Shown here: piece after piece, positions 12-19,487 of the stretch
How positions within the stretch are numbered: the first letter of the stretch is position 1
Layout of the letters: the number at the start of each line of letters is the position of its first letter
Assembly: GCA_009602725.1 (NCBI GenBank)
Contig: WELB01000317.1
Coordinates: 50,069 to 71,341, forward strand
Direction: 5' to 3'
Length of the DNA stretch: 21,273 nt
Source: Spirogloea muscicola
Lineage: Eukaryota > Streptophyta > Zygnematophyceae > Spirogloeales > Spirogloeaceae
Translations under genes and position numbers: made by a program
The notes under the pieces: generated by a model
Databases searched by the model: none
Told to the model about the DNA's origin: nothing
What the model saw: the letters and a program-made list of their open reading frames with translations, nothing else

Positions 12-1003
12 CTCAGGATCGATCATGCGGCTGCCAGTCGCAATTATAAAGCGGTATACTCGGCGTTCAAGAGCACGACGAAGACAGACGTTGCAGTCTT
101 CGCATCGCCATGCGCATGCGCTCATGAGCATCATACGCGACATCAGAGCTCACACGAGCTAAGGCTCACACGAGCCAAGGGCAGGTGGGATGGCAGTCGT
201 CTGCGTGACCTTCCCACCTGCGCACCGGCGCAGGCGATACCTCTAGACCGCCAGCGCCTGCGGCTGACGGGCGGCGATGCAGGGGCCCAAGGTGGCCATG
301 CCAACTCCGCGCCTTACTGCGCGCATCGGAGGCGAGCGGGGCTCCAAGGAAGGGTAAGTAAGGTGGGGCCCGATCGTCGTTCCGAACCCAGTCCCGCCCG
401 CCGAGGTTGTGCCCGCCGTATGGGGCCCGCCGAGCCAGAAATGAGAGGCCAGCAACGGAGCTTGCCACGATGATGAGGCACTGAGACAGTGGGGCAAGCA
501 GTAGGGGGGCCCGCCGCCCATTGGGGCGCCGCGCCGGCTCCGCGCGTCTCGGAGGGCGGCGGACACCACGTGAGCGGGACGGCCGCATCGGCCGCCGGTT
601 CAAGCTGATCGGAAAGTAGATCGGCGGTGGGGGGCGTCGTCGGGAAGCGCTGCGTCTTCCAATCCGATTTCTTGATTGAGTGGCAGCTGGTGGACGCGGG
701 GGATCGGTCGGTCGACCGCCGTCTCTCGCGGATCGGCCGGCTGACTTCCTTCTTCTCCTGCTGCTTGTGCTCACCCTTGATGCCAACGTCACACTGTTAC
801 CTTAGCCACCTTAGCTAGCGCTTCGTTTCGTGCATCCCCACGTTCCTCCACTAGCTTTTGCCTGAACAATTCAGGCACAATATATGGGCTTGAATTGGCC
901 ACCATTCAATTCACTGCGCACCGCGCCTTCTCCTCTTCGGTTACTAAATTTAACCACCTTAGCAAAGGGCTTCGTCTTATGCAGATGGTTCATGGCTTGC
1001 GCG
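12..1003. other. GC-rich stretch without a recognisable gene
   Basis: Open frames exist on both strands, including a 208-codon one on the - strand at 166-792, but their translations are low-complexity and rich in R, P, A and G, as expected from GC-rich DNA read by chance. I see no domain, no convincing splice pattern and no LINE protein similarity until about 1004. The region could be a promoter or UTR of a gene outside the window, or old repeat DNA. Confidence 0.5.
148..179. repeat. 16-bp tandem duplication
   Basis: Two adjacent 16-bp units, GCTCACACGAGCTAAG then GCTCACACGAGCCAAG, differ at one base. No function is evident. Confidence 0.8.
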
Positions 1004-1095
1004 CTGCATCTGCGTGCCATTTGCGTATTGGCTGCAGCCTCTGGCCCCTGGCCAGGGGACCCGCTACCTGGAGACTAGTTCCGACCTGCGGCTGC
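1004..1095 (+). mobile_element. LINE ORF2 C-terminal relic (group A)
   Basis: The frame reads HLRAICVLAAASGPWPGD. It aligns with HLRACRALAAASGFRQGD in the better copy at 1122-1535, and nucleotides near 1080-1094 read as the expected SDLRLLN end after a frameshift. It is a decayed, 5'-truncated LINE end lying directly upstream of the next copy, in the same orientation. Confidence 0.65.
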
Positions 1096-1121
1096 TCAAC
1101 TGAGTTAAATAATAGCAACTC

Positions 1122-1535
1122 GACTCCCTGTGCGCAAAACGCTCGTCGGAGGAGGCGGGCTACGCAGTCGGCCAAGCGGCGGGCGAGAAGGAACGGAAGT
1201 ACTCTGACCACCCGGTGGGCGACGAGTTCGTTCCACTGGCAGTGTACGTGCACGGAGCCTTTGGCTCCAAATGGCTTGACTTGCTCCACCGCCTGGCGCG
1301 GCGTGCAGCGGCCCGCCGCCTCGGGCAGCAGGGCGAGCAGCCCGGCTTCAACGTAGCCGGGTCCCTCGCTCAGGTGTTCCGTATGCGCTTGGCCGTCTCG
1401 ATGCAGCGGTCCCTCGCCTTCGCGGTTCACTTGCGCGCATGCCGAGCTTTGGCGGCGGCCTCCGGCTTCCGTCAGGGCGACGTCTTTCCACCAGCTAGCT
1501 ACTCGGATCTGCATCTCCTGTCTAGAGGTTACTGA
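1122..1535 (+). mobile_element. LINE ORF2 C-terminal fragment (group A), open to stop
   Basis: This is the best-preserved C-terminal end of the group A LINE protein. One frame stays open from about 1122 to the TGA at 1533-1535. It contains AKRSSEEAGYAVGQAAGEK, then GDEFVPLAVYVHGAFG, a basic helical stretch, and ends SYSDLHLLSRGY. The - strand copy at 13886-15610 carries the same segments, so this is a repeat family and not a host gene. The copy lacks the reverse transcriptase and everything upstream. That fits 5' truncation during target-primed reverse transcription, the usual fate of non-LTR elements. A stop at 1113-1115 and lack of similarity before 1122 mark the truncation edge. No promoter or start is expected. 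Confidence 0.85.
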
Positions 1536-1652
1536 GCGTTCCCTGGCTGATGTCTTAGTCCTAGTCGTTCGCACTCAAGCTCCCTCAGACCTTGTCCATT
1601 CTTTTGGGCTGGCCTTTCCCAGCCACCAGTCAATCTGGCCGCGCTTTCTCTC
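1536..1652 (+). mobile_element. LINE group A 3' UTR and terminal stem-loop
   Basis: This continues directly from the stop codon of the fragment before it. It contains CAGACCTTGTCCATTC, then an inverted-repeat core GGGCTGG / CCAGCC around 1607-1627, then CAATCTGGCCGCGCTTTCT. The same tail follows the protein end at 13886-14010 (- strand), so it is the element's 3' UTR. Tail-only copies lie at 1737, 2033, 18128, 20393, 20783 and 20893. Confidence 0.85.
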
Positions 1653-1662
1653 TGTGTGCTTA

Positions 1663-1735
1663 GCACTTCTCTGGCCCCTTCGAACTCTGTTCGTTCTTCC
1701 TTCTGGGGCTGGCCTCTCACAGCCACTGCCCTCTT
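1663..1735 (+). mobile_element. LINE 3' tail, group C type
   Basis: The segment has the group C signature: TAGCACTTCTCTGGCCCCTTCGAA, a pyrimidine spacer, then GGGGCTGGCCTCTCACAGCC. No coding sequence precedes it, so it is a tail-only copy. Confidence 0.7.
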
Positions 1736-1736
1736 C

Positions 1737-1802
1737 AGACCTTGTGCACTCCTTTGGGCTGGCCTCTCCCAGTCACCAATTGATGTGGCCGCGCTTTCTT
1801 CC
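1737..1802 (+). mobile_element. LINE group A tail-only copy
   Basis: This repeats the 3' tail at 1588-1652 with a few substitutions, including the hairpin core and the GGCCGCGCTTTCTT terminus. It lies in the same orientation, one copy downstream. Confidence 0.85.
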
Positions 1803-1829
1803 TCTCGTAGAAGTGACCTTCAACTTTCT

Positions 1830-1885
1830 TCATTCATTTTTGGGCTGGCTTTTCCCAGTCCCTATCCTCAATGGGCAAGCCCTTC
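1830..1885 (+). mobile_element. LINE group B tail, diverged
   Basis: Contains TTTTTGGGCTGGCTTTTCCCAG followed by CTCAATGGGCAAGC, matching the group B tails at 3520-3592, 3620-3687 and 20660-20727. Only the tail is present. Confidence 0.7.
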
Positions 1886-2032
1886 TTCAGCTCTTCTGGG
1901 CGCGCACTAAGCCAGGTCATTAGCTTCTGTGGTAGTACTCCTGCTCCCCAATGTAGCCTGTCGGAAGTATGTGCTCACTTAAGGGTACTTGAGTTTCCCT
2001 CCAGCTGTGTTTTGCCCGCATACCTTAACCAC

Positions 2033-2125
2033 TCTTAAGAAAGAAAGCGCGGCCAGATTGACTGGTGGCTGGGGAAAGGCCAGCCCAAAGGAATGGACAA
2101 GGTCTGAAGGAGCCGGAGTAGCCAC
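2033..2125 (-). mobile_element. LINE group A tail, inverted
   Basis: The reverse complement of the group A tail: AAGAAAGCGCGGCCAGATTG, the hairpin core, then GGACAAGGTCTGAAGGAGCC. It is tail-only, and opposite in orientation to the copies at 1536 and 1737. Confidence 0.85.
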
Positions 2126-2544
2126 TCTTAGCCTAGGCTTCACTTTGTGTAGCCCGGCTATCTGACCTGCTCTAGCTTTCTGAATGAAAGTGTTTGGCTC
2201 GGCTTGACCTCCATGTCCTTGCCTTTCCACCGCGCGCCTTCTCCATCTTGAAGGAACTTTTCTGAATTAAGCTTGCTTTCATTAGGTTCTTGATTACGCA
2301 CTTCCCCGGCCCATCAGACTTTGTCCATGTTTACTTAACCTAGCCTTTCACGCTACTGACTTCCTCCCGAGATTGCTTGCGCTCAATCGTGGGTACTGAA
2401 GTCACCTTCAGCTATGCTCTCGCCCTGTTACCTTAGTAGGCTAGGCCTTCGCTTTGTGTAGCCCCATGTATAGGCACGCTTTGGCCATAAACGGACTGAC
2501 CATAAATCAGTGATTTGCGATTAGAGGTCAAGGCAACGTCAATG
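2126..2544. other. Gap without recognisable feature
   Basis: Less GC-rich than the neighbouring DNA. I see no ORF of note and no clear match to the repeat groups named elsewhere. Confidence 0.4.
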
Positions 2545-3113
2545 ACCATAGAGTGAAAATTCCGTATATCAGAAACAAATGTAGGCCAACTGGCCAAGCA
2601 CAAAGGCAAGCACACCTAAAGATCTACCAAACATACAGCAGATTGACCCTCTCAATAACCACGGGTCAAAACATAAAGGTCACCAATCGATGCATGAATA
2701 CTAGATGCCAGAAACGGAGCCCTTCTGCCACCAACTAGAACTCGCCCAGCTTTCTGGTGTAAGGCACTAGCCTGAGCACGCTGCAAACAGGCCGAAACTC
2801 GTCGCGCAAGAGAGACGGATATGCAGCTGGCAAGCCCATCTTAGCCGGAAACACATAGGCACGTCGAGTGTAGCCTAGATTGGCAATGTTTTGAAGGAGT
2901 GTGGAAACGAGGACCCAGACAGCCAAAGATGTCGATTGCCGCTGGCAGGAGCTGACCGCATTGGGAGTAATCGGTGTAGTGCCGCAGTTTTCTTTGTTCT
3001 GCACCGCCCACTGCGTGCCCAGCGATGTGTGTCGATGCTGGGCCTTTATATGCCTCCGTAACAACGTCGACCAGGGCCCGTTGTCCTCCACCAGGTTGCA
3101 CCGTAAGCGGCAT
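2545..3113 (-). mobile_element. LINE group L C-terminal fragment, frameshifted
   Basis: Read on the - strand, one frame gives VQPGGGQRALVDVVTEAYKG and later LRHYTDYSQCGQLLPAAIDI. Another frame then gives NLGYTRRAYVFPAKMGLPAA and LRDEFRPVCSVLRLVPYTRK, followed by DLYVLTRGY and a stop near 2680. The + strand copy at 4270-5085 has the same segments. It corresponds to the group A region with GGGPRFIANVVTTD and FVPLAVNVHG, so it is the same LINE protein domain in a diverged subfamily. At least one frameshift disables it, and its 5' part is missing. Confidence 0.8.
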
Positions 3114-3204
3114 AGAGGGAACTAGAGGGTGTTGCACCGTACGCGGCACCCTGCCAATTTGCACGTCACACAGAACTCGGCTTGGCCTCCCATTTATCAA
3201 TGCG

Positions 3205-3420
3205 CCCCGCGCGCCTTCTCTCTTTCGCACCAGAAAGCTGGCCGACCCTTGGCTGGTGGCACAAAGGCTTGTCATCTGCCTTCTGGTATTCGGGCATCAG
3301 TCAGCGACCTCTATGTGCTGACTCGTGCGTACTGAACGGGTCAGCTTAGCAGCAGGTGATGTACACATGTCAATGTGCTTGCCGTTGGACTTGGCTACTC
3401 AGGCCCTCCATTACTCAAGA
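3205..3420 (+). mobile_element. LINE group L 3' end
   Basis: The + strand frame ends SDLYVLTRAY with a stop at 3333-3335. It is followed by a 3' UTR containing GTCAGCTTAGCAGCAGGTGA and ACTTGGCTACTCAGGCCCTC. The - strand copy at 3845-4095 matches it over roughly 190 bp, forming an inverted pair. Confidence 0.8.
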
Positions 3421-3445
3421 CACACTCCTTTGTCTTCTACGAGAC

Positions 3446-3482
3446 AAGCAGCTACGAGACACTGAGTGTCTCGTAGCTGCTT
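3446..3482. repeat. Perfect 37-bp palindrome
   Basis: Two 18-base arms, AAGCAGCTACGAGACACT and its exact reverse complement, flank a single central G. The arms contain the GTAGCTGCT motif that also precedes a group C tail near 18786. The palindrome lies between the inverted group L copies. Confidence 0.95.
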
Positions 3483-3500
3483 TGGTTCTGTTTCTCAGCG

Positions 3501-3687
3501 CTTCCCCTGGCCCCCTTCTCGTACTCTGTTCATTCTTTTTCGGGCTGGTTGTTCCAGCCCTCTATTCTCAATGGGCGAGCACTTTCTTCTTTGTCTTCTT
3601 CCCCTGGCCCCCTTCTCGTCCTTTGTTGATTTTTTTGGGCTGGCTTTTCCAGCCCCTATTCTCAATGGGCGAGCACTTTCTTTGTCT
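3501..3687 (+). mobile_element. Tandem pair of group B LINE tails
   Basis: Two head-to-tail units, 3501-3597 and 3598-3687, each start CTTCCCCTGGCCCCCTTCTC. Each carries the GGGCTGG...CCAGCCC hairpin and ends CAATGGGCGAGCACTTTCTT. No coding sequence is attached. The pair arose either by local duplication or by two insertions at the same place. Confidence 0.9.
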
Positions 3688-3699
3688 CGCATGCCCAAC

Positions 3700-3810
3700 C
3701 TCGCGCTTACACCAGTTGCTGGCCTTGCTTTATCGCTTTCTTGGCCCCTTCGAAATTTGTTATTTTTCCTGGGCTGGGCAATCACAGCCATCGCCCTCTA
3801 GTGGGAGAAA
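3700..3810 (+). mobile_element. LINE 3' tail, group C type
   Basis: Contains TTGGCCCCTTCGAAATTTGT, then CTGGGCTGGGCAATCACAGCC and TAGTGGGAG, a diverged group C tail. Tail-only. Confidence 0.7.
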
Positions 3811-3844
3811 TATACCTTTCAAAGAAAGTGGCCCTCCCAAAGGA

Positions 3845-4095
3845 TGGAGTGAATAAGTGATGGAGGGCCTGTGTAGCCAAGTACAAATGCAAGCACATTG
3901 ACAGGTGTACATCACCTGCTGCTAAGCTGACCCGCTCAGTAACCACGAGTCAGCACGTAGAGTTCGCTAACTGATGCCCGAGTATCGAACGGCAATTGAC
4001 AAGCTCGTGTCACCCATTAAGGCTCGACCAGCTTTCTGGTGCAAAGCATGAGCCTGAGCTCGCTGCAAACAGGCTGACACACGACGTCCCAAAGG
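3845..4095 (-). mobile_element. LINE group L 3' end, inverted partner
   Basis: On the - strand this reads through a coding end with the usual YxLTRGY-stop near 3990, then the same 3' UTR as 3335-3420. With 3205-3420 it forms an inverted repeat of about 190 bp with about 430 bp between the arms. A transcript crossing both could form a long double-stranded stem. Confidence 0.8.
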
Positions 4096-4194
4096 AGGCA
4101 AAAAAGAGTCTCCTTTCTTTGTTACCAAACTCCCATCCGCTGTAGTCTCTTGCATTGCTATGTGCGTTTGGCGCCATAAGGCTTTTGGACCTTG

Positions 4195-4270
4195 CACAAT
4201 TCCTTCGGTCAAGCTCTGAGACAGCGCTTTTGGCCCCCTCGAACCTTGGCTGTTCACAGCCCTTGCCCCC
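4195..4270 (+). mobile_element. LINE 3' tail, group C type
   Basis: Contains GAGACAGCGCTTTTGGCC, CCTCGAACCTTGGCTGTTCACAGCCCTTGCCCC in shortened form, and then abuts the group L fragment. It lacks part of the spacer seen in other copies. Confidence 0.65.
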
Positions 4271-5085
4271 TTAGACTGCCTGATTGGGGTGCGCCAGTGT
4301 GAGTGCGGCTTCCGTGCAGAGGGTGCTGAGCTCGCCACTCGCACGCTGAGATGCCCCATAGGACCAGAAGTGGTGGACATCCACAACCTCCTCCGCGATG
4401 CCCTGGCGGGCTTGATGCGCGACGCCGGCTACCGTGCGGTTGTGGAAGTCAACGATATCAAGTCAACGATATCATGCCTATCACCACGGACGCCCAGGGA
4501 CGTCATCATCAGCGCACACTTGACTTTGTGGGCGTGCAACCTGGTGGAGGACCACGGGCCCTGGTTGACGTTGTTGTTACACAGGCGTAGGCGTATAAAG
4601 GTCCAGCATCGACACACATCGCTGGCCACGCATTGGGCGGTGCAGACACAGAAAGCTGCAGCACTACTCCGATTACCCCCAATGCGATCAGCTCCTGCCA
4701 GCGGCAGTCGACATCTTTGGCTGTCTGGGTCCTCGTTTCCACACTCCTTCAAACATTGCCAATCTAGGCTACACACTGACGTGCAGATGTGTTTCCGGCT
4801 GAGATGGGCTTGCCAGCTGCTTATCTGTCGTTCTTGCGATGAGAGTTTCGGCCTGTTTGCAGCGTGCTCAGGCTAATGCCTTGCACCACAAAGCTGGGCG
4901 AGATCTAATTGGTGGCAGAAGGGCTTCACACCTGACATCTAGTATTCAGGCATCGATTAGCGACATCTATGTTTTGACCCGTGATCACTGATTTGGTCTA
5001 TCTGCTGTAGGTTATGTAGGTCTTGAGATGTGCTTGCCTTTGAACTTGGCCATTTGGCCTTCGTTTGTTTCAAATACACGAAATA
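4270..5085 (+). mobile_element. LINE group L ORF2 C-terminal fragment with Cys/His motif
   Basis: The frame reads VRQCECGFRAEGAELATRTLRC and then HNLLRDALAGLMRDAGYRAV. It matches CECG...H...C and HDRLRNAMVGIFVEAGY in the group A copy on the - strand near 14700. After a 14-bp tandem duplication at 4447-4474 the reading moves frame to MPITTDAQGRHHQRTLDFVG and VQPGGGPRALVDVVVT. Further frames continue to DIYVLTRDH and a stop near 4990, then the group L 3' UTR. The Cys/His motif followed by acidic residues resembles the C-terminal zinc-binding and nuclease-like part of several non-LTR element proteins. That resemblance is inference. The copy is 5'-truncated and inactive. Confidence 0.85.
4447..4474 (+). 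repeat. 14-bp exact tandem duplication causing a frameshift
   Basis: AGTCAACGATATCA occurs twice in a row. Fourteen bases are not a multiple of three, and the LINE protein similarity changes frame exactly here. The sister copy at 14110-15126 reads through the same place without the extra bases. Confidence 0.95.
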
Positions 5086-5114
5086 TTCCTTTGAGAGAAT
5101 GTGGCTCTTTGAGA

Positions 5115-5185
5115 GAGCTACATTCCTTTGGGCTGGCAATCTCACAGCCATTGCCTTACTTTGGAAGAGCTATTTCTTTGCTTCA
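5115..5185 (+). mobile_element. LINE 3' tail, group C type, next to the gene start
   Basis: Contains CATTCCTTTGGGCTGGCAATCTCACAGCCATTGCC and GGAAGAGCTATTTCTTTGC in broken form. It ends about 100 bp before the probable start codon of the exonuclease gene, so it sits in that gene's promoter or 5' UTR region. Confidence 0.7.
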
Positions 5186-5288
5186 ATGTCAGCGACTAGA
5201 CTCTCAGTTCGTGCGCACCACCGAGGCCGCCGGCTGGCTGTCCGATACAGCGGCCGCCGCCACAAGGCAAGCAGCGTCGCAAGCGGGC

Positions 5289-6889
5289 ATGGCCTCCCGC
5301 AGCGACGGCGCCGCCGGCGGCGGCGGTGAGCGCCACGGCTTGTGGCTCGCCACCACGTTGGCCGGCGCGTCGCCGGAGGCCGTCGCAAAGGACCTCCAGC
5401 GCGCCTATGTCGAAGGTGCGGCAACCGACCAGCCGCCGGCGCACCATCTGTTGCATCAGATGTGGTCAGATAGCAATGCCGTGGGAGCTGCTGGCCAGTA
5501 GAGGGGCCTCACCGTGGCCGCTAGACGTTACTTATCGCTGCTAACGCGGCAGTAGACAACTGATCGTGCACGCAGGCCACGGCGGAGCGGGCGCGCGATT
5601 CAACGCTTTGCGCGACCACTTAAGCTTTCTGCTTCCAACGGCGCTGCCATTGGCGCCGGCCACCTTCGCCCTGCGGTGCCTGCGCGCCGTACAGGCTCTG
5701 GAGCCGCCCTTTGCGGAGGGCCTGAGCTACCTGGTGCTCTCGGCGCTCTCCCGCATCGACAAGACGCACCGGAGGGAGGCGGACTCTGGCGAGGCGCGGG
5801 CAATGGCCGCTGCGCTGCTTCACAGCTTCGCCGCTGGCAACATGCAGCTCAATGCCAGGTTGATGGTGCGGCTGGTCACCACGTTCGGCGTGACGATTGC
5901 AGACGTCCCTGCTCAGCAGCGAGGTGGCGTGGAGGACTTAGTGGCCAGGCTGACGGTGCGTTTTGTCTCAAGCTTGGCCATACTCGCAAGCCCAAGCACT
6001 AATCTCGCTGCGCAAAAAGTTACAGTGAAGCTGGTAGAAGAGGCAGGTGCAGTCATGTCTGTGCAGCGGCTCAGTGCCAGGGTTTGGTTAAGCTTGCTCC
6101 TTCCTGGGTTCTCAACAGCCGCAAGCTGAGGACCTTACAGACTGAAAGATTTGCCACAGGTGAGGAGGGAGTACACAAGTGCAGTCGATCTGATGCGGCA
6201 GTTGGGTATACCTGAGCCGGCATCCACCAAAATTCTGGCCAAGATGGTGGAAGAAGGCAGAGCCGAAATCGCAGCCGCCTGGTCTGAACAACTTGGATCA
6301 GCGGCTCAAATATTGCTTGTGGAGCAATGCATGGCTGCTGCCCAATTCAAGGTCGCTCACACACTGGTGCAGCGCTTCCATCTCCAGCAACAGTTTCCAG
6401 ACTCCTTCTCTCTGTATCGCAAAAGGTGAAACTTTGACTGTCAGTTTCGTGTTGGCTGGTCCAGCTTGACAAAGATTGACCTTGCGAATGCCGAGTGTCA
6501 GGGTGCTCAAGTCTTGATTCCTAAGCCAAAGGGATCATTTGACTGCGGCAAATGCGCTCACCTACACATCTCTGCACGCGATGCTGACCTGCAGCTCTGT
6601 CAAGAAGCTCGTAGGCAAGGGTCTTTGGGACGTTGCTGAGTCCTTAGTGCGCGGCCATGCAGACCTGGCCCACTTCTTGGTGAGCACCTCACTCTTAGTC
6701 CTGTGCATATATCAACAGTGAGCTGATTGTGAGGGACTCTGTGCTGCATGCTAGTGCTGGCGCTTGCTGGGCTCCTTGCTCACATCTCACTGTTTTTGCA
6801 GGCCACACTGGCCCTGGATGCTGGCAAGATGGAATTAGTCTCTGAGCTCTGTGTCCAATATAATCTGGATGAGCTACTACCGGAAGATG
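5289..6889 (+). other. N-terminal helical region of the exonuclease gene
   Basis: Exons 1-5 encode about 338 residues that are mostly helix-forming: for example LRDHLSFLLPTALPLAPATF, REYTSAVDLMRQLGIPEPAS, FKVAHTLVQRFHLQQQFPD and LALDAGKMELVSELC. The order of helical repeats, the FPD motif and a DAGK-type helix just before the nuclease domain resemble the N-terminal half of Mut-7/EXD3 proteins. The first intron is the least certain: donors at 5462, 5465 or 5498 all fit the phase of the acceptor at 5552. Confidence 0.7.
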
Positions 6890-9800
6890 GTATGATGTTT
6901 TCTTCAGATAGACGTCACTTACCTGCCTGTCAATCCTCAAGACACGCAAGCACTAGCAGTCATGAATTACAGCAGGATAGCTTTACAAATTGCAGTTACA
7001 GTTTGGATGCTTAGCATCTGACCTGTTGTTGTTTGCAACAGTTGCTGCGAAGATAGCAACAGAGAGTCAGCAATACCTCCAGATTTCGAGCCTAATCCCG
7101 GAGGCTCATGTCATATGGGTAGATTCAGCCAGAGACCTTCAAGCCGCAAAGAACCAACTTCTCCTGGCTTCAAGTGTCGGTATAGACTGTGAGTGGAAGG
7201 CCAATCACACAAAGGGAGAGGGCCAGAACAAGGTATGCTAGTGCGCTTTGGTCTTTCTGCATCAGGTATGTTGAAATTGAAGCCCGTGCCGTCTCCTACT
7301 CACACTGTAGCACTGTGATTTACAGGTTGCAACGCTGCAGCTGGCCACAAGCGAGTATGCGTATGTTTTTGATATTATACGTCTGGCAGCTGAGGAGCAT
7401 GACTTGTTGGGTGACTGCCTCTATTCAGTTTTTCAGGATTCTACCATTCTCAAACTCGGTAAGTCCCCCCCCCCAGGCCACCTTGTCGTTCATGCACTTT
7501 GCAGAATCATAATCAGTCCAAGGTGGACAACAGCAGACATTGGTCTCTCAGTGTCTTTCAGAGCAACCCTTGGAGGGATTTTGAAGGCAGGGCAACCTTC
7601 TGTGCTGGATGTCTATAGGCTATGGGGTCCGCAATGACTTGGCCAGATTGGCAGCATCCTACCCCATGCTCACCTGCTTCCACCTGTGCACCCCTGTCCT
7701 TGACCTCCACACATTAGCTGGCAAGGGACAGAAGGGTGGACTGAGTCAGCTTGCAAAGGTACAGTCTCTATCTGTAGCGCTTTGACTCCTCTTGCTCTCG
7801 CACCTTGCTGATTCTGGTACTGTAACCACACCTACGTCTCAAGTTTGCAGCCTTCTGCTGATCGTGACAGAGAACCCTTGGTCTACCATTAGACAAGCGG
7901 GTGCAAATGAGTGACTGGGAGCAGCGACCCCTCTCCGAGCAGCAGGTCTCGTTCTTGCTCTCCTGCAATTGTCTGTTGGTGCACCAAGCAAGGAGCATGA
8001 CCTTCAAACTCACCAAATTCAGACCCTAGATCCTCAACCTAAACTCTAAACCGCAAAGTAATCCCTGACTTTAGACCTTGAAAGGGCATTCCCGATGATG
8101 GCACGGACCTTTTTGTGACGTGTTGATTGTCATCATATGCTGCTCTCGTAAGGGCCTTGTCAGTGGCGTGCAGATCAAGTATGCTGCAATGGATGCAGTC
8201 TGCCTCCTTCCCATATTTGTCAGACTGCAAAGCCTGGACTTCTGGGAGGAGGCCAGCCCTACCATTCCACCAGACTACACGGGTCTGACTGTAAGTCCAT
8301 TGTGTGGACAAGGACGCGCAAGCTCACATGTCTGGCTGTCCTTGCTTTCTCACGCTGTTGCACGTTTGTGCTGTAGTTTACATTTAAGCACACGGGCAAG
8401 ACGCTACTGGAGGAGGGCAGAGTCAGCGGAGTATACGGAAAGGACTTTGCAATGCCTCTATCGTTGGCCAGCGTGGAGGAAGCATTACAGGATTTGGGTT
8501 GGCATCCACTCACAGCAGCTCTTAATTCCTTCATGGTGCAAGAGGAAGCAACCACACGGCAAGGACCAGGAGGATCGCTTCAGGAAGAGGCAACGCTTGG
8601 GCCTAGCCCGAGAAAGCGCTACGCAGTACTTGACGCGCAAGGCCTTGCTGAGTCCTGCATCCCTCTGATAGAAGCCAAATGCGTGGGCGTATTGGTCCAA
8701 GAACCACCTGATGACCTAGTAAGCTTCTGCCGATTATTTGTAATTTCAAGTACGGTTGTCTGGGTTGTTGATGAGATGCATACATACAATGATCACCAGC
8801 AAAAACGTGGGCTCATGATTGTAGCTCAAAAGGTTGCTCCTGTATAGCAGTAGTACAAGTTGATGATTGCTAAACTGCTTTGGTCAAAACCTCACTTCCA
8901 TCATTGCTGCCAGCCAGCCTCAGGAAAGATGAAAGGTAGGCTTCAGACGTGGGCGCAGAGGCTCGGCCTGCCGATACCAGATTACACCACCACCAGTTAC
9001 GGGCCACCACATCTGCCGGTGTTTCAGTGCCACGTCCGCATCGGCTCTGCAAGTTTTCAAGGAAAGAGTGCCCAAAAGAAGAAGGACGCAGAGTTCTCCG
9101 CTGCGCTTGAGGCTCTACAAGCCCTCCAAGGTCATTCAAGCACGTGCAGTGGTAGTGCCTATCAGTCGGGTCTCTGCCAGTTGAGAACGGAAGTGAAAGC
9201 ACCACTGCAGTTGATCGAGTTTTTTGACTTAGGTGCTCTTTCTTGTTGCAGGGCAATCTGCCTTAGCAATGGCCTTAGCTGCTGAGGAGCAAGAAAGAAG
9301 TGAAGTGAAGCATGAGAGGCAGCAACGTATGGTGCTCCATACTCCAGTGCATTTGACATTCTCGTTTCGCGCTAAACACTTGCGCTTTTGCAACAAGGGA
9401 ACACAATCCTCCCAAACTGATTGTGCACTTTGTCATGTTGCATCTGATGTTTTTAACGTATCTGGTTATCAGCTATTCACATTGTTAGTCATTGCGATTG
9501 GGAGTCATAAGAGGCCAACTATGTGCCGGTTTTCTGGTATTTTCATAGTAACCCTCTTTAAGCCTCCAATTTCGCCCCTATGACTTTGACAGCAAAATTA
9601 CTCGTGGTTGTTCTCCCCAAAACCATGCGACCTGACCTGGCGAAGCTCGCTGCTTTGCTTGGAGAACCAAGGAGGTACTGTTGCCCCTTCTCCGAAAGCG
9701 TTCTGAAGAGCTCATGTGAAATCTGTGAATGTGTGAGAAGAGAGTCCAGACAGGGTCGTCGCCACCATGGCACCCTCTCTGATTGAGGGGTTCGTTTAGC

Positions 9801-11035
9801 ATTCTTAGAATCTGAATTAGTAGAAGAGCTAAGCATTGCTGTGTTGTGTCTCTTCTTATTGTCTGGTCATCTGCAACTGAGTGGAACATAAATCGAAACC
9901 TGTGCCTCTGCTACGATACAGGAACTTCCATCCAGCAACAGCTCAAGAATGCAGCCACTACTTTGGCTGCAACAAGGGGCTCTTACCTCCAGTTGGATAT
10001 GGCCACGATGTCACTACCATGGTGCATATGGAGCTTCTTGTATTAGCTGTATCAAGCAGTGCCGCCATTACTGTTGCTTCGGGCTCTTTCCAGGAGAAGC
10101 TAGTCCTCCCCCCATCCTTCTTTGCGCAGTTCAAGGCTGCTGATCTTGCCAAGCCTGAGTTGGAAAAGCAAGACAGGACTGCAGATCCATTCGAAGGCTC
10201 ACTGCGTGGCTCTGGCATTAAAAATACGCAAACAGCAGACGAGTGGAGCGAGGGTGTCGACGTGCTCAGACAGGCTGTGCAGGACGAGGATGAAAGCTTC
10301 CCAGTAACCTGCAGTGATGCTGAAAGCATTGTGACAGTCTATTCACCCCTGTGCTGTCGCATACGGGCACAAGCCTCACAATGCCAACCGCGTGTAGCCA
10401 AGCACATTCTCAAGAGAGGCTTTGCGTTGCTGAGGAGAGCGCTCAGACATGCTAGGGGACAATGTGGAGATGGAAGGAAGCAATTGGTTGCATACATTGC
10501 AGGTTGAGTGTATGCTTGATGGCAGCCAATCTCACTTTCATGCCTTGCACTTTAAGTGTATGCTTGATGGCAGGCATTGCACAAGGTCGCAAGTATCTAC
10601 TATTGTGCTGGGGTGGGGCAAACCCCTTTGATTAAGTCTGCAATCGGCAGGTAGCTTTCCTCATTTGCTGACAATCTCTGTGCATGCCATTGTGCAGGCT
10701 GCTCAAACATGTGCATGGCAGTGCATTCATCTGCCACATATTTGGTTGTACAATCTGTGAGCAGATGGGTAGGCCCCTACCTGCAGTCAGGACAACAACT
10801 GATTCACTCAGGAGTCGAATTACTCGATCAAGCTCTGAACGCCATGGTTCAGGTTGTGGCAAGAATGTCAAGCCCAGTGCTACCTAATGCACCCTCAAAA
10901 AGTCAATCAAGATCTACTGAAGCGCGACACACCACTGTCACTGCAAAAGCGAACATTCTACAATCAGGGCGCCGGAAGTGGGAGCTAGTGTCGCACTCAA
11001 TGTCGCATCCCGGTAAGCATCTGGATTGTTCTTAG
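5289..11035 (+). CDS. Mut-7/EXD3-like 3'-5' exonuclease fused to dsRBD and YbaK domains (multi-exon)
   Basis: I reconstruct 16 exons: 5289-5464 (end uncertain), 5553-5955, 6160-6425, 6595-6679, 6802-6889, 7042-7232, 7326-7458, 7619-7758, 7871-7945, 8174-8290, 8377-8718, 8947-9130, 9252-9326, 9593-9674, 9922-10502 and 10698-11035. Every intron is GT-AG, and all junctions from exon 2 onward keep phase. The product is about 1,090 residues: helical N-terminus (1-338), DEDDy exonuclease (about 362-540), linker, dsRBD (about 672-732), YbaK fold (about 759-855), unknown C-terminus. It probably trims or edits RNA, acting on structured RNA or tRNA. That role is inferred from the domains. I chose the ATG at 5289 because in-frame sequence further upstream is LINE tail. 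The stop at 11033-11035 applies only if the GTAAGC at 11013 is not a donor. Mut-7/EXD3 relatives usually end with a Mut7-C domain, which I do not see here. Confidence 0.85.
7042..8290 (+). other. DEDDy 3'-5' exonuclease domain
   Basis: Exons 6-10 carry the three exonuclease motifs in order. Motif I is GIDCEWK (D about 387, E about 389). Motif II is ILKLGYGVRNDLARL (D about 453). Motif III is SDWEQRPLSEQQ followed by IKYAAMDAVCLL (Y about 521, D about 525). The tyrosine four residues before the last aspartate marks the DEDDy class, like WRN, RNase D and EXD proteins. All four metal-binding acidic residues are present, so it is predicted active. The spacing KLGYG...LGLPLDK...SDWEQRPL is closest to the Mut-7/EXD3 branch. 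Motif III needs the 25-codon exon at 7871-7945, which is easy to miss. Confidence 0.95.
8377..8718 (+). other. Linker exon between exonuclease and dsRBD
   Basis: A 114-codon exon with FTFKHTGKTLLEEGRVSG, ASVEEALQDLGWHPLTAAL, a charged low-complexity stretch, and CIPLIEAKCVGVLVQEPPDD. I do not recognise it confidently. Its last part could be the first half of a YbaK fold (the strand that normally carries the catalytic lysine), which would place the dsRBD inside that domain. In that reading glycine would replace the lysine. This is inference. Confidence 0.45.
8947..9130 (+). other. Double-stranded RNA-binding domain
   Basis: One exon encodes a complete dsRBD of about 60 residues. Helix 1 is TWAQRLGLPIPDY, the strands include PVFQCHVRIGSASFQG, and the second helix begins KSAQKKKDAEFSAALEALQA with the basic KKK signature that contacts the dsRNA major groove. 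The acceptor at 8946 is chosen because it alone keeps phase 0 with the donor at 8719. Confidence 0.85.
9593..10190 (+). other. YbaK/ProX-type aminoacyl-tRNA editing domain
   Basis: Exons 14-15 encode KLLVVVLPKTMRPDLAKLAA, ALLGEPRRNFHPATAQECSH, YFGCNKGLLPPVGYGHD and ITVASGSFQEKLVLPPSFF. The strand plus D-KLA helix, the GxxxP loop (GLLPP, about 804-808), PVGYG and the VASGS strand are hallmarks of the YbaK/EbsC/ProXp family, which deacylates mischarged tRNA. The usual catalytic lysine lies upstream of this segment and I cannot place it with confidence, so activity is uncertain. The joining of 9674 to 9922 keeps phase and restores the expected family order. Confidence 0.82.
10191..11035 (+). other. 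Unidentified C-terminal region of the fusion protein
   Basis: After the YbaK fold comes an acidic linker (DEWSEGVDVLRQAVQDEDES), a basic helix (RVAKHILKRGFALLRRALRH), and, after the intron 10503-10697, an amphipathic or hydrophobic segment (YLVVQSVSRWVGPYLQSGQQ, GVELLDQALNAMVQVVARM). A Ser/Thr-rich tail follows. The intron is phase-consistent (phase 1 on both sides). I do not recognise a family. A donor-like GTAAGC at 11013 means that more exons may follow. Confidence 0.5.
10507..10573 (+). repeat. Two direct copies of a 19-mer inside an intron
   Basis: AGTGTATGCTTGATGGCAG occurs at 10507-10525 and 10555-10573, 48 bp apart, within the intron 10503-10697. No function is evident. Confidence 0.9.
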
Positions 11036-13885: not shown

Positions 13886-15610
13886 CTCCAAAGAAAGCGC
13901 GGCCACATTAAGTGGTGGCTGGGAGAGGCCAGCCCAAAGGAATGCACAAGGTCTGAAGGAGCCGGAGTGCTAAGGTCTAAGACATCAGCAAGGGGACGCT
14001 CAGTAATCTCTAGTCATAAGATGCAGGTCGGAATAGCTCGCAGTCGGAAAGATGTCGCCCTGACGGAAGTTGGAGGCCGCCGCCAATGCGCGGCCTGCTC
14101 GCAAGTGAACTACGAAGGTAAGGGACCGCTGCAAAGAGATGGCCAAGCGCATCTGGAATACGTGAGCGAGGGACCCGGCGACATTGAAGCCAGGCTGCTC
14201 GCCCTGCTGCTCGAGGCGGCGGGCCGCTGCTCGCCACGCAAGGTGGTGAAGCAGGTCAAGCCATTTTGTGCCAAAGCGCCGTGTACGTTGACGGCGAGTG
14301 GGACAAACTCGTCTCCCACCGGGTGATCCAAGTATTTTCGTTCCTTTGCGCCCGCCGCTTGGCGGACTGCGTAGCCCGCCTCCTCCGACGAGCGTTTGGC
14401 GCTCCTGGAATCAAAACAGTCAGTCGTGACAACGTTGGCGATAAAGCGAGGCCCCCCGCCGAGCGCGCTGGCGACGAGATCGGCGCGCCGGGTGTGGAGG
14501 CGGCCATCCGCCCCAACAGTCGGAGGCATGATGCTGGTATTCTCGAGCGCCACCGTGTAACCGGCCTCGACAAAGATGCCAACCATTGCGTTCCGCAGCC
14601 GGTCGTGGGTTCCTGTCCGCTCCCCGCCCCGTGCGCACCTGAGCATATGAGCTGCCAATGATGCCGCGTCTGAGCTGCGCTCGCCGCACTCACACTGCTG
14701 TACTCCACTGAGGCAGGGTAGGTGGAGGCCGCGGAGGTGGTGCACCACTGTTCGGAAGGCGTCATCAGGCATCCAGAGCGCGTCGTGGATTGGCAGGGCA
14801 GACAACCAAGCTGCCGCCGCTGGGGAGGATGCCGAGAGCGACCGCGCGCGGCCCCGGAGGTCGTCTGAAGGCAAAAGCCCCAACGCCGTGATGAAGGAGG
14901 CCGCATCTACCTCGGCCATGATGCGAGCTTGGGCCCGGAGATCGGCCCCGGAGGTGCGCGAACGGGACGTCCCGTGGCACCAGGGCGCAGTGATCCGCAA
15001 GCAGCACATCCCGGGCTGAGCGGAGAGCCGCCTGGAAAGGCAACGTGCCAGTCTCCACGTCCGCTGCCGCCTGCTCCAGGAGGCGACCCCCATGCCGGAT
15101 GAACGCTGGGCCACCGAAGCCGCCACCTGCGCCCAACTCCCCAGGTGCGCTGCGCGTAGGCACGAGCCAGCGGACGGCAGCCCAGACCCCCGCGGCTCAC
15201 AGGCAGGGAGGCCTGGTGCACTGCAGCCGGCGTCGCCAGGAAGGCCGGGTGTTGGACCAGGGCCGCTGTGCTGGCCAGGATACCCGCATCAAAGGTTGCA
15301 TAGGCGACCTGCGCCGCCGGGGAGGGGGGGAGGGCTCGAGCCAGGTACAGGGGACGTTGGGCAAAGCTGCGTGTCAGCATGGCGAGCTCGAGCTGGCTTT
15401 CCGCAGCCATTGCCCCCATTTGGAGTGCCACCTCTCCTGCGCCCCCGCCCGCGGGTCGCTGTGCGTCATCCGATGGTGCTTCCCATTGTACTTGGCCACT
15501 TCGGCCTCCCGTTATTTGTGTTGAAACTATGGAAGCGCCTCCGCAGCGCCCCGCCCGCGGCCGCCTTCCCCGCATCCCTCCACAACCTCCTACCGCTTGG
15601 AGAGGAGCTT
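13886..15610 (-). mobile_element. Longest LINE copy (group A): post-RT region, Cys/His motif, C-terminus and 3' tail
   Basis: On the - strand about 15437-15152 reads LELAMLTRSFAQRPLYLARA, AAQVAYATFDAGILASTAAL and SLPVSRGGLGCRPLARAY. This is the region that follows the reverse transcriptase in LINE proteins. Another frame gives LLEQAAADVETGTLPFQAAL. The frame 15126-14110 then carries AAAAWLSALPIHDALWMPDD, QQCECGERSSDAASLAAHML followed by RC, HDRLRNAMVGIFVEAGY, RRADLVASALGGGPRFIANV and GDEFVPLAVNVHGAL. A one-base deletion near 14280 (compared with 1240-1265) shifts frame again. The stop lies near 14007, then the group A 3' tail to 13886. The reverse transcriptase core and 5' end are absent and there are at least three frameshifts, so this is a dead copy. 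Confidence 0.87.
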
Positions 15611-15786
15611 CCACCGACTAACTCAACACGAATGTGCAAGTGGGCAAGTACAACGGCAAGCACCATCTGATGACGCACATCACGCACCGCAAATTGGCCC
15701 GCTCGGCGGCCGCGGGTCAGCAGGGGGCGCGGCCCGCCCCGCATGGCGCCCGGGGCGCACGCTTGCGGCGCAGGCGTGCGGCAGGG

Positions 15787-15865
15787 AAGAAGGTGCTCGC
15801 CCATTGAGAAGAGGGGCTGGCAAAGCCAACCCAAAAAGAATGGACAATGTTCAAAGCCAAAGAAG
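15787..15865 (-). mobile_element. LINE group B tail, inverted
   Basis: The + strand shows GTGCTCGCCCATTGAGAAGA, then GGGGCTGGCAAAGCCAACCC and GAATGGACAATGTTC, the reverse complement of the group B tails at 3520 and 20660. Tail-only. Confidence 0.88.
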
Positions 15866-16354
15866 GGAAGGGAGCGCGTATTATTGACGGAGGGCCTGAG
15901 TGGCCAAGCTAGCAAGGCAAGCCCGTTGAAGAGTCAGTCTCGTCTCATTAAGGCGGCGTGCGCCAGAGGGGTACGGCCGCGCCTGCCAGGGTGGGCAAGC
16001 CCCGCCCAAGCCGCCACCGCCGCGCCGCGCCATTGGCCGCTGCCGCCGACGCCGCCGCCGCCGTCCCCACCCCCATGGGAAGAGGGGCTGCTGTCAGACA
16101 GGGNACCCCGGCCCGCCGCTCGCCGCCCCGCCGGGCGCCGCGCCGCTGGCTGCCGCGGCGGCCCTGAGACGTCCACGCTGGGGCGCGGGGCCTTGCTCGC
16201 TCTCGTTTGGCGCATGGGGCACCGCGCCTCCTTCTGAGGCCCGGCGCTGGCGACGGAGCGAGCGCCACTGCGTGAGCCGACGCCAGCTGCGGCGGCACAG
16301 CGGCGGGCGTCCTGCCGGGCCTGCGGGACCGTGGGCCTCTCCCGTCCTGGGGCT
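15866..16354. other. Very GC-rich segment before the orphan ORF, with one ambiguous base
   Basis: The segment is dominated by CGCC and GCCG runs, and position 16104 is an N. In-frame stops, for example at 16235-16237, separate it from the ORF downstream. It could be the promoter or 5' UTR of that ORF. No motif is specific enough to call. Confidence 0.4.
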
Positions 16355-17344
16355 ATGCAGGACCTGCAGGGCTGCTATGGCGCGACCTGGGAGGACACCG
16401 GCAGCCGGCGTCTCCACCTAGCTGGCAGCACAGCCCTCGCCGGCAGCATCAGGCCGACCGGACTGAGCTGCTGGCTGCAGCCCCACGCCGCCGCCGTCGG
16501 CGTTTTTCAGTCCGGAGGTGCGGCGCCATGCGTGTCGTGGCTGGAAGACTTCGCCGAGCGCCAGCTGCCCGTGCACGCAGCTCTCCACAGGAGCGCAGTC
16601 AGTAGCGGCGCCGCCGCACACGACCAAGCGCAGGCCATCCGGAGGGCGGTGAGCCACTGGGAATCGCAGCAGCAGACCGCTGACAGCCCCCACACATCTG
16701 CGAGGGTGCCTGAGTACCGGCACCCACCTGACGGGAGGGTCCTCTCCGCACCGTGCCCGTCACCTGCGGCAGTTCAGTCAGTGCGTGGACCGGCCTCCTT
16801 GCACCAGTCGCGGGAGATTGCGAGGCCGTTGTTAGAGCGGCTGGAGCTGGGCAAGCGGAAGCTGGAGCTTGTGACAGAGCAGCTGAACGCGATGCTGGAG
16901 AAAGCCGACGGGCAGGAGCCCGGTCGGAGGCCCCGCCTGGAGAACGTGTGGCCAAGAGTTGCAGAGTCCCAAGGTGGGACCTCCGATGAGAACGATGACT
17001 CGCTCACCCGGAGCTCCTCTGAGAAGTCGCCAGGCAAGGCCAAGACGCCTGTGGAGACGCCAAGCGAGGGCGTCCGGGTTGAAGCGGCCTGGGCCAGTCT
17101 GCTGCAGCACCCCAAGAAGCCCATCGATCTTCGGGAAGTTGCTTCCTCGTGGGGCCGGAGGTGGGAAGACCAGACCGGCGACCATCTTTGCCAGCCGTCC
17201 AGCAAGGTGCAGGCTGGAAGCAGCGCATGTGCGCTCTCTGCTCAGAGTCTGCCCCGCCTTGAGAGCCCACAGGCAGCGAGCTCGATGCTAGCAACCAGCC
17301 AGAGTATCCGATGTCCCCCTCTTGATCTTGATTTGCATCTCTGA
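16355..17344 (+). CDS. Orphan 329-residue protein with predicted coiled coil
   Basis: The ATG at 16355 opens a frame that runs to the TGA at 17342-17344. The codons are GC3-rich and the protein is of mixed composition, unlike the chance frames nearby. The N-terminal half has no recognisable domain. Around residues 155-195 the sequence REIARPLLERLELGKRKLEL, followed by VTEQLNAMLEK, is a strong candidate amphipathic helix or coiled coil. After it comes a Ser/Glu/Lys-rich, probably disordered segment (SDENDDSLTRSSSEKSPGKA), then EAAWASLLQHPKKPIDLREV. I recognise no family. An upstream exon is possible, because the frame is also open from a GTG at 16331 back to a stop at 16235. It could also be a chance ORF. 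Confidence 0.45.
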   Translation: MQDLQGCYGATWEDTGSRRLHLAGSTALAGSIRPTGLSCWLQPHAAAVGVFQSGGAAPCVSWLEDFAERQLPVHAALHRSAVSSGAAAHDQAQAIRRAVSHWESQQQTADSPHTSARVPEYRHPPDGRVLSAPCPSPAAVQSVRGPASLHQSREIARPLLERLELGKRKLELVTEQLNAMLEKADGQEPGRRPRLENVWPRVAESQGGTSDENDDSLTRSSSEKSPGKAKTPVETPSEGVRVEAAWASLLQHPKKPIDLREVASSWGRRWEDQTGDHLCQPSSKVQAGSSACALSAQSLPRLESPQAASSMLATSQSIRCPPLDLDLHL

Positions 17345-18060
17345 GTCACCAGTGTCTGCTATTTTCCCAACTCCGGCCCAAGGCTGGGAGCGAAGACATG
17401 GTGAATGACCTCCTCTCCAGCGAGGTCAGCATCACAACTGCATGTCAAGAAGCCACCCAATGACTTTCTGTGGCTCCAGGAGTTTCCAGCATTTACGACG
17501 CTGCTACCGCCGCTGCATAAGTGGCCTGCACTTACCGTTCATTCGCCAATCGCTGATTGGGACCAGCCTCGTCTTTGCCAAATGTCGCCTTGTGTCCGTC
17601 ATGTCTCTCAGCGGGCTAGCAGTCCGTCAGTCAGGCATATCACGCAGTCACGCTCGCGCAGACTTGCCAACTGGCGCTTCAGAGCAGGGCCACTCCTGCG
17701 GTCACCTTGGGGGCGTCCGGGCCCATGTGAGGCCCTTTAAGTGTCCAGGGTTTTGGACTTTTGGGGCGAGAGCATCGAGAGGTCCCAGGAGCCTGTCAGG
17801 CGTCCACGTCTGGGCCGACTCGAGGCGATCAACGCGAGCAGGCTGGCGGGCGGGCGCGGAGCGGCACATCCGGATCGGTAAGGTGGGTCGCCCGGCGCTA
17901 CATGGCGGGGGGCGGAAGCGGTGTCGGCAGTGCGGCCGGGCGGGGCGTGCAGGCGGGCAGGGCGGCTGGGCGGCAACGAGCGGCCAAGTGCCAGGCAGCG
18001 CTGGCCGTGGGCGCGCAGGTCGAGTCACGTCGAAGTTCCGCTAACCTTTCGGCCCGCGTC
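17345..18060. other. GC-rich stretch without a supported gene
   Basis: Overlapping frames on both strands exist (for example 17442-18044 +, 17702-18028 -) with R/G/A/P-rich translations. I see no domains and no LINE similarity until 18060. The first part is probably the 3' flank of the orphan ORF. Confidence 0.4.
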
Positions 18061-18098
18061 ATCTCAGCCCCTATTCTCGATGGGCGAGTACTTCCTCT
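18060..18098 (+). mobile_element. LINE group B terminal fragment
   Basis: CAGCCCCTATTCTCGATGGGCGAGTACTTCCTC is the right half of the group B tail. The left half of the hairpin is missing. Confidence 0.7.
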
Positions 18099-18127
18099 TC
18101 GCCATTTTGGGCTGGCCTCTTTGTTCG

Positions 18128-18275
18128 AGAGAAGCGTGGCCAGATTGACTGGTGGCTGGGAAAGGCCAGCCAAAAGAATGGACAAGGCTGAAGGAGCCGG
18201 AGTGCGAACGATTAGGACTAAGACATCAGCCAGGGAACGCTCAGTAATCTCTAGTAAGGAGATGCAGAATGCAAG
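18128..18275 (-). mobile_element. LINE group A 3' end, inverted
   Basis: The + strand shows the reverse complement of the group A tail (GCGTGGCCAGATTGACTGG, hairpin core, GGAGCCGGAGTGCGAACG). It continues across the stop codon into the last codons LHLLTRDY. This copy has the same stop-to-tail junction as 1533-1560, confirming that the tail belongs to the LINE. Confidence 0.88.
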
Positions 18276-18384
18276 ATCTTTGTTCTGGGTGCCCCAAGCT
18301 GCCCTCCCACCAATGGTGGTGGGCGTCGACCTGCTGCACTGGAAGAAGCAGATTCTGAAACGGCCGTAGATAGCGATTGCATTC

Positions 18385-18900
18385 CCATTCGGACCTCGTC
18401 AAGTTCTCTTCGGGCTGGCTGTTGGGAGAGCCACTTCTCTCTTGCATTCGGACCTTGTCATTTCTTTTCGGGCTGGCTGTTCAGAGCCCTTGCCCCCGCT
18501 GGGAGAGCCACTTCTTCAACCTATTGTATATGGGAGAAGAAGCTGCTCTTTCGAAGGGGGGGCTGAGACAAGTGGCTCTCGGGGGGCAAGGGCTGAGAGA
18601 AAAAGCGAGCCCACAAAGGAAAGAACAATGTCCAAAGGAAGAACGAGAGTGGCTCTCCCAGTGAACCCATTGGGAGAGCCACTTCTTCGTCTCCCAGTGA
18701 TTCTTGTGTGCTTTAGCGCTTTCTCTGGCACCTTCAAAGTTTATGTATACTTCTTTCTGGGCTGGCCTCTGACAGCCCCCCCTTCGTAGCTGCTAAGCGC
18801 TTTTTGGCCCCTTCGAACTTTTGCAAATCCTTTTCGGGCTGGCTTTTCACAGCCCTTGCCCCCAGTAGGAGTGCCACTTCTTCTGAAGCGTCCTTGCTTC
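18385..18900. mobile_element. Cluster of group C LINE tails
   Basis: At least five pieces with the group C signature lie here: GGACCTCGTC...CGGGCTGGCTG near 18395, CGGGCTGGCTGTTCAGAGCC near 18469, an inverted one near 18545-18630, and + strand ones near 18755-18790 and 18786-18885. Several end GGGAGAGCCACTTCTTC. No coding sequence is attached. They look like successive insertions at one spot, or local duplication. Confidence 0.75.
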
Positions 18901-18976
18901 TCAAAAGAAGCCACTTTCACTAGACGTTACCAAGTGATTTATGCTACGGGCCAGCTTTGAAAAAGCGCTTCTGGCG

Positions 18977-19106
18977 CCTTCGGACATTGTCGATCTCTTT
19001 CGGGCTGGCTGTTCACAGCCCTTGCCCCCTTTTTGCCACTTCGCTCTCCACGAGGGGACAAGGGCTGTGCACGGTAGCCCGAAGGAAACTGACAATGTCC
19101 AAAAGG
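18977..19106. repeat. Imperfect inverted repeat built from two group C tails
   Basis: The left arm (18977-19028, with GGACATTGTCGATCTCTTTC and GGGCTGGCTGTTCACAGCCC) and the right arm (19054-19106) are reverse complements over about 50 bp with several mismatches. About 25 bp separate them. Two group C copies in opposite orientation make a potential long hairpin, and each arm also carries its own internal hairpin. Confidence 0.85.
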
Positions 19107-19118
19107 GCCAGGAAGAGA

Positions 19119-19288
19119 AGAGCTCGCCCATAGAGAAGAGGGGCTGGCAAAGCCAACCCAAAAAGCGCTTGCCCAAAAGCTTTCCCGGTAGAATTAGCAA
19201 TTAGTGACTTCTACTTAGGAGCCGCAAATCATAGAGACTAGCAGCCGGAAAGTAGTAAGTGCAGCCGGAAAGCAGTCCTCCCCTGACG
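19119..19288 (-). mobile_element. LINE group B 3' end
   Basis: On the - strand the coding end reads FPAASLYDLRLLSRSH with a stop at 19203-19201. A short 3' UTR and the group B hairpin tail to 19119 follow. A small internal duplication of TTTCCGGCTGC lies around 19225-19270. Confidence 0.8.
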
Positions 19289-19480
19289 AAGTGCTCGCCC
19301 ATAGAGAAGAGGGGCTGGCAAAGCCAGCCCAAAACGAGTGGACAATGTCTAAAACCAAGGAAAAAGGAGCCGAAAAATGACGACAATACAAAAACTTCAA
19401 AACATGTAGACGATGTACAGGGAAGCTCAGTACCCACGAGTGAGCAACATCAAGTCTGAGTAGCTCGCTGCAGGTTAAAG
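19289..19480 (-). mobile_element. LINE group B 3' end, second copy
   Basis: On the - strand AASYSDLMLLTRGY and a stop near 19428 are followed by a 3' UTR with CTTCCCTGTACATCGTC. The tail then reads GGGCTGGCTTTGCCAGCCCC and TATGGGCGAGCAC. The + strand copy at 20500-20730 matches it from the protein end through the tail, which defines group B. It abuts the previous copy in tandem. Confidence 0.85.
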
Positions 19481-19487
19481 AGCCTAG

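Follow-up and report, generated by a model that had tools for sequence, protein, structure and literature searches.

We analysed a window of 21,273 nucleotides from the green alga Spirogloea muscicola (assembly GCA_009602725.1, contig WELB01000317.1, positions 50,069 to 71,341 of the forward strand; C317:50069-71341 in our numbering). The window contains a gene of 16 exons (Table 1) that is predicted to encode a DEDDy 3'-5' exonuclease of the MUT-7/Nibbler type, followed in the same protein by a double-stranded RNA-binding domain (dsRBD) and by the C-terminal half of a YbaK/ProX-like fold. A preliminary description of this DNA, made from the sequence alone, had placed these modules in one protein encoded between 5289 and 11035, and our model has the same ATG and the same TAG.

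Table 1. The exonuclease-dsRBD-YbaK gene and its parts. Positions are those of the window; Ka/Ks, the ratio of nonsynonymous to synonymous divergence, is the range among three genome copies.
Feature	Position	Strand	Ka/Ks	Remarks
Whole gene	5289..11035	+	0.30-0.32	ATG 5289 to TAG 11033-11035; 16 exons, 1078 residues; open and phase-consistent in 3/3 copies
Exons 1-5	5289-5415, 5576-5955, 6160-6425, 6595-6679, 6802-6889	+		N-terminal region
Exons 6-10	7042-7232, 7326-7458, 7619-7758, 7871-7945, 8174-8290	+		exonuclease domain
Exons 11-16	8377-8718, 8914-9130, 9252-9326, 9593-9674, 9922-10502, 10698-11035	+		
N-terminal region, residues 1-315	5289..6889	+	0.20-0.23	MUT-7/Nibbler N-terminal domain by position only
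DEDDy 3'-5' exonuclease domain, residues 316-534	7042..8290	+	0.18-0.24	PF01612, residues 340-514
DCE (putative Exo I)	7185..7193	+		aligned with DCE of EXD2; identical in 3/3 copies
YGVRND (putative Exo II)	7621..7638	+		Asp aligned with EXD2 Asp; identical in 3/3 copies
YAAMDA (putative Exo III; Y and D of DEDDy)	8180..8197	+		from PDB alignments; identical in 3/3 copies
Exon 11, residues 535-648, without family match	8377..8718	+	0.33-0.43	possible N-terminal half of YbaK fold
Exon 12, dsRBD of plant DRB type	8914..9130	+	0.05-0.13	PF00035, match 8932-9126
Exon 13, linker between dsRBD and YbaK half	9252..9326	+		
YbaK/ProX fold, C-terminal half, residues 746-841	9593..10126 (exon 14, 9593-9674, and start of exon 15)	+	0.26-0.67 (top value from a low Ks, 0.07)	PF04073, residues 747-807
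GXXXP loop, GLLPP, residues 792-796	9977..9991	+		invariant in 3/3 copies
C-terminal region without known domain, residues 842-1078	10127..11035 (rest of exon 15 and exon 16)	+	0.52-0.56	no Pfam match

We found two further copies of the gene by a DNA search of the alga's own genome (471 contigs, 153.1 Mb in total; with 68 matches to PF00504, the chlorophyll a/b-binding family, it is the genome of a photosynthetic organism). One copy is on C19 (87% identity) and the other on C132 (86%), and the 16-exon model was set from the alignment of all three. The three proteins have 1078, 1082 and 1076 residues. In every copy all 15 introns are GT-AG and the frame is free of internal stops. Exon 3 was set to start at 6160 because the copies differ by out-of-frame gaps just upstream. 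The preliminary description had joined the exons by phase-consistent introns, including those across 8174-9930, and these joins are in phase in all three copies: the exons that start at 8174, 8377 and 8914 are in phase 0, those at 9252 and 9593 in phase 1, and that at 9922 in phase 2. Sorted by score and judged by eye, the 21 dsRBD (dsrm) matches in the genome form seven groups of three; this grouping and the three gene copies suggest three haplotypes or subgenomes. The copies on C19 and C132 are closer to each other (Ks 0.14) than either is to the window copy (Ks 0.18).

The three copies are constrained as one reading frame. Exons differ by 1, 4 and 3 insertions or deletions in the three pairs of copies, and none is out of frame; in introns the counts are 43, 38 and 32, and the lengths of 33, 29 and 24 of these are not divisible by three. 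Divergence among the copies is 0.063-0.081 in exons versus 0.123-0.161 in introns. Variable sites at the three codon positions number 33/21/89 in exons 1-10 (p=1e-12) and 61/49/96 in exons 11-16 (p=2e-4), and the same count in the introns gives 165/174/172, that is, no bias (p=0.88). Among the regions longer than 25 residues the dsRBD is the most constrained (Table 1). The single conserved frame, the kept splice sites and the in-frame exon indels in three copies support one fused protein. Judged by sequence and selection, the fusion of these domains is thus confirmed as real, and the gene structure, the domains, the catalytic motifs and the absence of MUT7-C are established on the same two grounds.

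All three copies were scanned with Pfam, with matches judged against gathering scores. The profile check proposed in the preliminary description gave the expected outcome: PF01612, PF00035 and PF04073 were above the cut-off in each copy. The exonuclease of the window copy matched PF01612 with 92.3 bits (E 3.9e-26), and its best sequence match in the PDB was an entry named 'Exonuclease mut-7 homolog' (4.3e-18), followed by EXD2 (7.6e-12) and WRN (6.8e-10). Three motifs, DCE, YGVRND and YAAMDA, which we take to be Exo I, II and III, are present. Both mut-7 homolog chains have Ala at the first Asp of DCE, perhaps as crystallised mutants, and the Asp was therefore checked against EXD2. From its sequence, the exonuclease appears to be of the MUT-7/Nibbler type, with the catalytic D-x-E, D and Y-x-x-x-D residues kept, as had been proposed. 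The MUT7-C domain (PF01927) was not found in the 1078-residue protein, although the same model detects a separate gene in this genome that encodes an exonuclease and MUT7-C; its absence had also been pointed out before.

The dsRBD, described earlier as canonical, proved to be so both by profile and by modelled fold. It matched PF00035 with 44.4 bits (2.5e-11 in the whole window-copy protein and 4.8e-13 in a fragment of exons 12-13). The AlphaFold model of the domain (predicted local distance difference test, pLDDT, 71) has the order alpha-beta-beta-beta-alpha, and Foldseek with this model placed Arabidopsis DRB4 and HYL1 on top (TM 0.62). By this model, the dsRBD is closest to those of plant DRB4 and HYL1. 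Within the genome, its closest relatives share 41-47% identity with it across the domain, and one set of them (on C159, C313 and C1) carries two dsRBDs, like plant DRB proteins. On C159 and C313 the match reaches about 20 residues into the tail of exon 11 but is poorly aligned there, and we take this extension to be chance. We also considered a match on C312 (query residues 585-722, with internal stops) as a second gene with exon 11 and a dsRBD. This was rejected: tblastn on the apparent counterparts on C126 and C111, and on C159, C313 and C1, strongly matched only the dsRBD.

The YbaK-like part is recognised as a half domain. In the window copy PF04073 scored 32.7 bits (9.1e-8), covering positions 33-92 of a profile of 123; the matches in the other copies cover 33-94 and 30-95. 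The first part of the profile was unmatched and a complete contiguous editing domain was not found. When the three copies are aligned to 51 members of the YbaK family, the match starts at the third strand and continues through the domain's end. The invariant loop Gly is kept (ASG) in the family alignment under two mafft settings and in a further alignment of one of the copies, L011. Since this Gly is kept, the C-terminal half is full and not a degenerate core, which makes a working editing site slightly more probable and a remnant slightly less so. A replacement of the loop Gly by Ser had been considered and was dropped, as the alignments of the three copies show Gly. No relatives of the YbaK half turned up in the searched collections of genomes and viral contigs, which included no eukaryote other than this alga. 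A PF04073 search of the genome itself gave two matches, both below the cut-off, and missed the window copy, in which the domain is split by an intron. Of the YbaK/ProX-like domain with a GxxxP loop that had been described, the GLLPP in the PF04073 region stands; a domain matched along the whole profile does not.

The lysine-bearing half was sought in exon 11. Characterised members of the INS superfamily use a conserved lysine together with GXXXP (PMC11286415), and this lysine is given as K46 in PMC9425024. The tail of exon 11, QGLAESCIPLIEAKCVGVLVQEPPDDL, is invariant at 26 of 27 residues in the three copies and contains, within EAKCVGVLV, an invariant Lys that could, from its sequence context, be the superfamily lysine. 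However, an N-terminal YbaK half with this lysine was not recognised by Pfam, by a profile of 51 YbaK-family sequences or by hhalign on exon 11 joined to exons 14-15 (with the dsRBD omitted). The Pfam score was 33.8 bits with exon 11 added versus 35.3 without it, and the hhalign score went from 39.3 to 40.0. Scored against a model of the missing half, exon 11 was equalled or exceeded by 85 (window copy), 49 (copy L010) and 61 (copy L011) of 1000 shuffles per copy. This was a low-power test: among known positives held out of the model, E. coli YbaK scored only 2.6 bits (with H. influenzae YbaK also omitted), YeaK 13.0, APE2540 16.9 and L063 57.8. AlphaFold models of exon 11 from three sequences were uninformative (pLDDT 34). 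Two other assignments of the lysine position were not accepted. A forced global alignment put a Gly there (a one-residue shift by eye would give Lys, and was not accepted either), and a weak local alignment put there the Asn of ALNSFMVQ. As a separate observation on the family, a YbaK-family member from Leifsonia (L055) has Asn at the family lysine position.

It could be argued that two genes are present: one for a MUT-7-type exonuclease, with its end after exon 10 or exon 11, and one for a dsRBD-YbaK protein, with its start at the ATG of GKMKGRL in exon 12. All three copies do have an ATG where the dsRBD begins, and TGTAA, which serves as a poly(A) signal in green algae, spans the donor of exon 10 in each of them and sits in intron 11 in two. 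However, TGTAA also follows 11035 in two of the three copies and occurs in other introns (at 7821 in one copy and 9506 in another). We dropped it as a marker of gene ends because it does not discriminate between one gene and two. Exon 11 (114, 118 and 118 codons in the three copies), if read past its donor, meets a stop at 156, 154 and 144 codons from the exon start, in diverged sequence. In contrast, the 27 residues that precede the donor are nearly invariant, as noted above, and the rest of the exon is invariant at 62 of 87. In each copy intron 11 retains GT-AG and its 0/0 phase, and stops close the reading frame ahead of the dsRBD exon. On these sequence features one gene is much the simpler explanation, and two genes would be very improbable. 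The conservation of intron 11, the comparison of copies and the codon-position bias thus agree with the earlier view that this is one gene.

The protein shares features with several known systems. Sections of one study (PMC11347159) place MUT-7-family exonucleases in small-RNA pathways of worm and fly, with little on other lineages, and report that MUT7-C is present in most family members, is lost in drosophilids, and increases both the RNA binding and the activity of MUT-7 and EXD3. According to the same sections, the exonuclease of Nibbler is specific for single-stranded RNA, and the N-terminal domain of Nibbler is proposed to recruit the enzyme to Argonaute-bound RNA. Like MUT-7, Nibbler and EXD3, the window protein has a MUT-7-type DEDDy exonuclease with kept residues after a long N-terminal region. 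Unlike them, it has a dsRBD, a YbaK-like half and an uncharacterised tail in place of MUT7-C, and homology of the N-terminal region is unsupported by sequence. The exonuclease type is also shared with the plant-type protein that joins an exonuclease to MUT7-C (A. thaliana A0A1P8BGD5, in a section of PMC11347159). This genome has such a gene in three copies (L022, L023 and L024, on C144, C15 and C280), whose exonuclease, in a sequence pieced together by hand, has the mut-7 homolog as its best match (2.7e-12). That gene has MUT7-C but no dsRBD match, the reverse of the window protein; it also gave no PF04073 match, in a search that missed the window's own split domain as well. The window dsRBD is nearest to DRB4 and HYL1 in fold and sequence, but it is one dsRBD inside an exonuclease protein, whereas the DRB4 structure has two in 153 residues. 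With the INS superfamily (YbaK, ProXp-ala, YeaK and MCP3/ProXp-7) the protein shares the C-terminal half from the third strand, PF04073, GXXXP and the loop Gly; it differs in that the N-terminal half with the conserved lysine is unrecognised.

The explanation that we favour, at about an even chance of being correct, is that the gene encodes a MUT-7/Nibbler-type 3'-5' exoribonuclease in which MUT7-C has been replaced by a DRB-type dsRBD and then a C-terminal YbaK-like half, with the dsRBD gripping a duplex for 3' trimming and the YbaK piece recognising the RNA end or a partner. The dsRBD would most likely hold the duplex or hairpin part of the RNA, and, in the place of MUT7-C, would provide a second grip on structured RNA. 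The DEDDy exonuclease would then trim or degrade the single-stranded 3' end of the RNA so held. The YbaK-like piece would most likely recognise the RNA end (for example CCA or a tRNA-like end) or a partner, rather than deacylate. The RNAs acted on would likely be precursors or duplexes of small RNAs, or else structured RNAs that have misfolded. Here we infer the RNA substrate, the coupling of the domains and the lack of deacylation. The genome has matches to the Piwi domain on four contigs, and on three contigs, each also with a dsRBD match, it has paired RNase III domains, as expected of a Dicer-like gene. Nibbler-like trimming would therefore have partners, and trimming of small or structured RNA by the window protein is plausible.

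Several observations weigh against this explanation. Residues 1-315 have no sequence match to the Nibbler N-terminal domain, to Pfam above the cut-off or to a relative in the PDB (best E 0.24). The HEAT-like N-terminal domain expected of MUT-7, Nibbler and EXD3 was thus not matched in sequence searches of this 315-residue region, and the tie to MUT-7 therefore comes only from the exonuclease. Exon 11 (p=0.59) and exon 16 (p=0.44), each taken alone, have no significant codon-position bias. The fused protein is itself a prediction, known here from the genomic sequence of its three copies. Finally, the YbaK half leaves room for a working editing site, being above the cut-off in all three copies and having GXXXP and the loop Gly. 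It is possible, then, that the protein is a bifunctional enzyme of tRNA quality control, in which one and the same tRNA would be deacylated by the YbaK part and degraded by the exonuclease. We consider this improbable: the invariant Lys of exon 11 could supply the superfamily lysine, but the Pfam match is limited to about half of the profile, adding exon 11 extends no match and barely moves the hhalign score, and shuffled sequences reach its half-model score 49 to 85 times in 1000. On the sequence, tRNA deacylation is neither demonstrated nor excluded. The earlier suggestion that the protein could deacylate a tRNA goes beyond the sequence, as the lysine-bearing half is unrecognised, though the C-terminal half is intact to its end. 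Of the coupled tRNA quality control or small-RNA trimming suggested with it, the trimming is made plausible by the Piwi and RNase III matches.

A related arrangement would have the dsRBD nested in a whole but split YbaK fold. That is, exon 11 would be the N-terminal half, with the invariant Lys of EAKCVGVLV as the superfamily lysine, exons 14-15 would be the C-terminal half, and the dsRBD would lie in the hairpin between strands two and three, so that editing guided by double-stranded RNA or an acceptor stem is joined to the exonuclease. This arrangement is unlikely, in our judgement; if it were true, deacylation of an RNA 3' end would be coupled to trimming. A reading to which we give a little more weight, but which we still doubt, is that the YbaK-like half and the C-terminal tail are decaying remnants or a scaffold without a role in RNA, leaving a protein of exonuclease and dsRBD. 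Their Ka/Ks values are among the highest of any region. However, PF04073 is above the cut-off in three copies, all exon indels are in frame, and GXXXP and the loop Gly are kept.

Outside the gene, at 1500-5200 and 13890-20960, the window contains families of short dispersed repeats (D1-D6) with a TTTTTGGGCTGGCTTTTCC core, which occur in both orientations; none of the listed copies is within 5289-11035. Similarity among the genome copies ends upstream of about 5190 and returns at 3700-4100 with C132, but not with C19 in the stretch compared. There are open-frame fragments at 781-1356 (+), 4220-4876 (+) and 14110-15288 (-), the last two sharing a QCECG...LRC pattern. They had no Pfam match but look like the terminal part of a retrotransposon protein. 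The regions of these fragments are connected by inverted repeats that reach 311 bases. Within the gene, where exon 15 ends, a 41-base direct repeat (83%) at 10488-10576 places a second copy of the donor region in intron 15.

A join of YbaK to MUT-7, Nibbler or EXD3 was not found among the papers listed in literature searches, which covered few subscription journals and preprints only through PubMed Central; in one such search no listed paper contained YbaK, and one of them, on E. coli RNA-binding proteins, contained both Pfam names. As far as searches of this genome and of the literature reach, the architecture is unreported, and it may stand in public algal annotations. It is a natural domain swap in a genome that also has an exonuclease-MUT7-C gene, Piwi and RNase III, and so would offer a way to probe the role of MUT7-C and the choice of substrate. 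It would also provide a testable link between the trimming of small or structured RNAs and an aminoacyl-tRNA editing fold.

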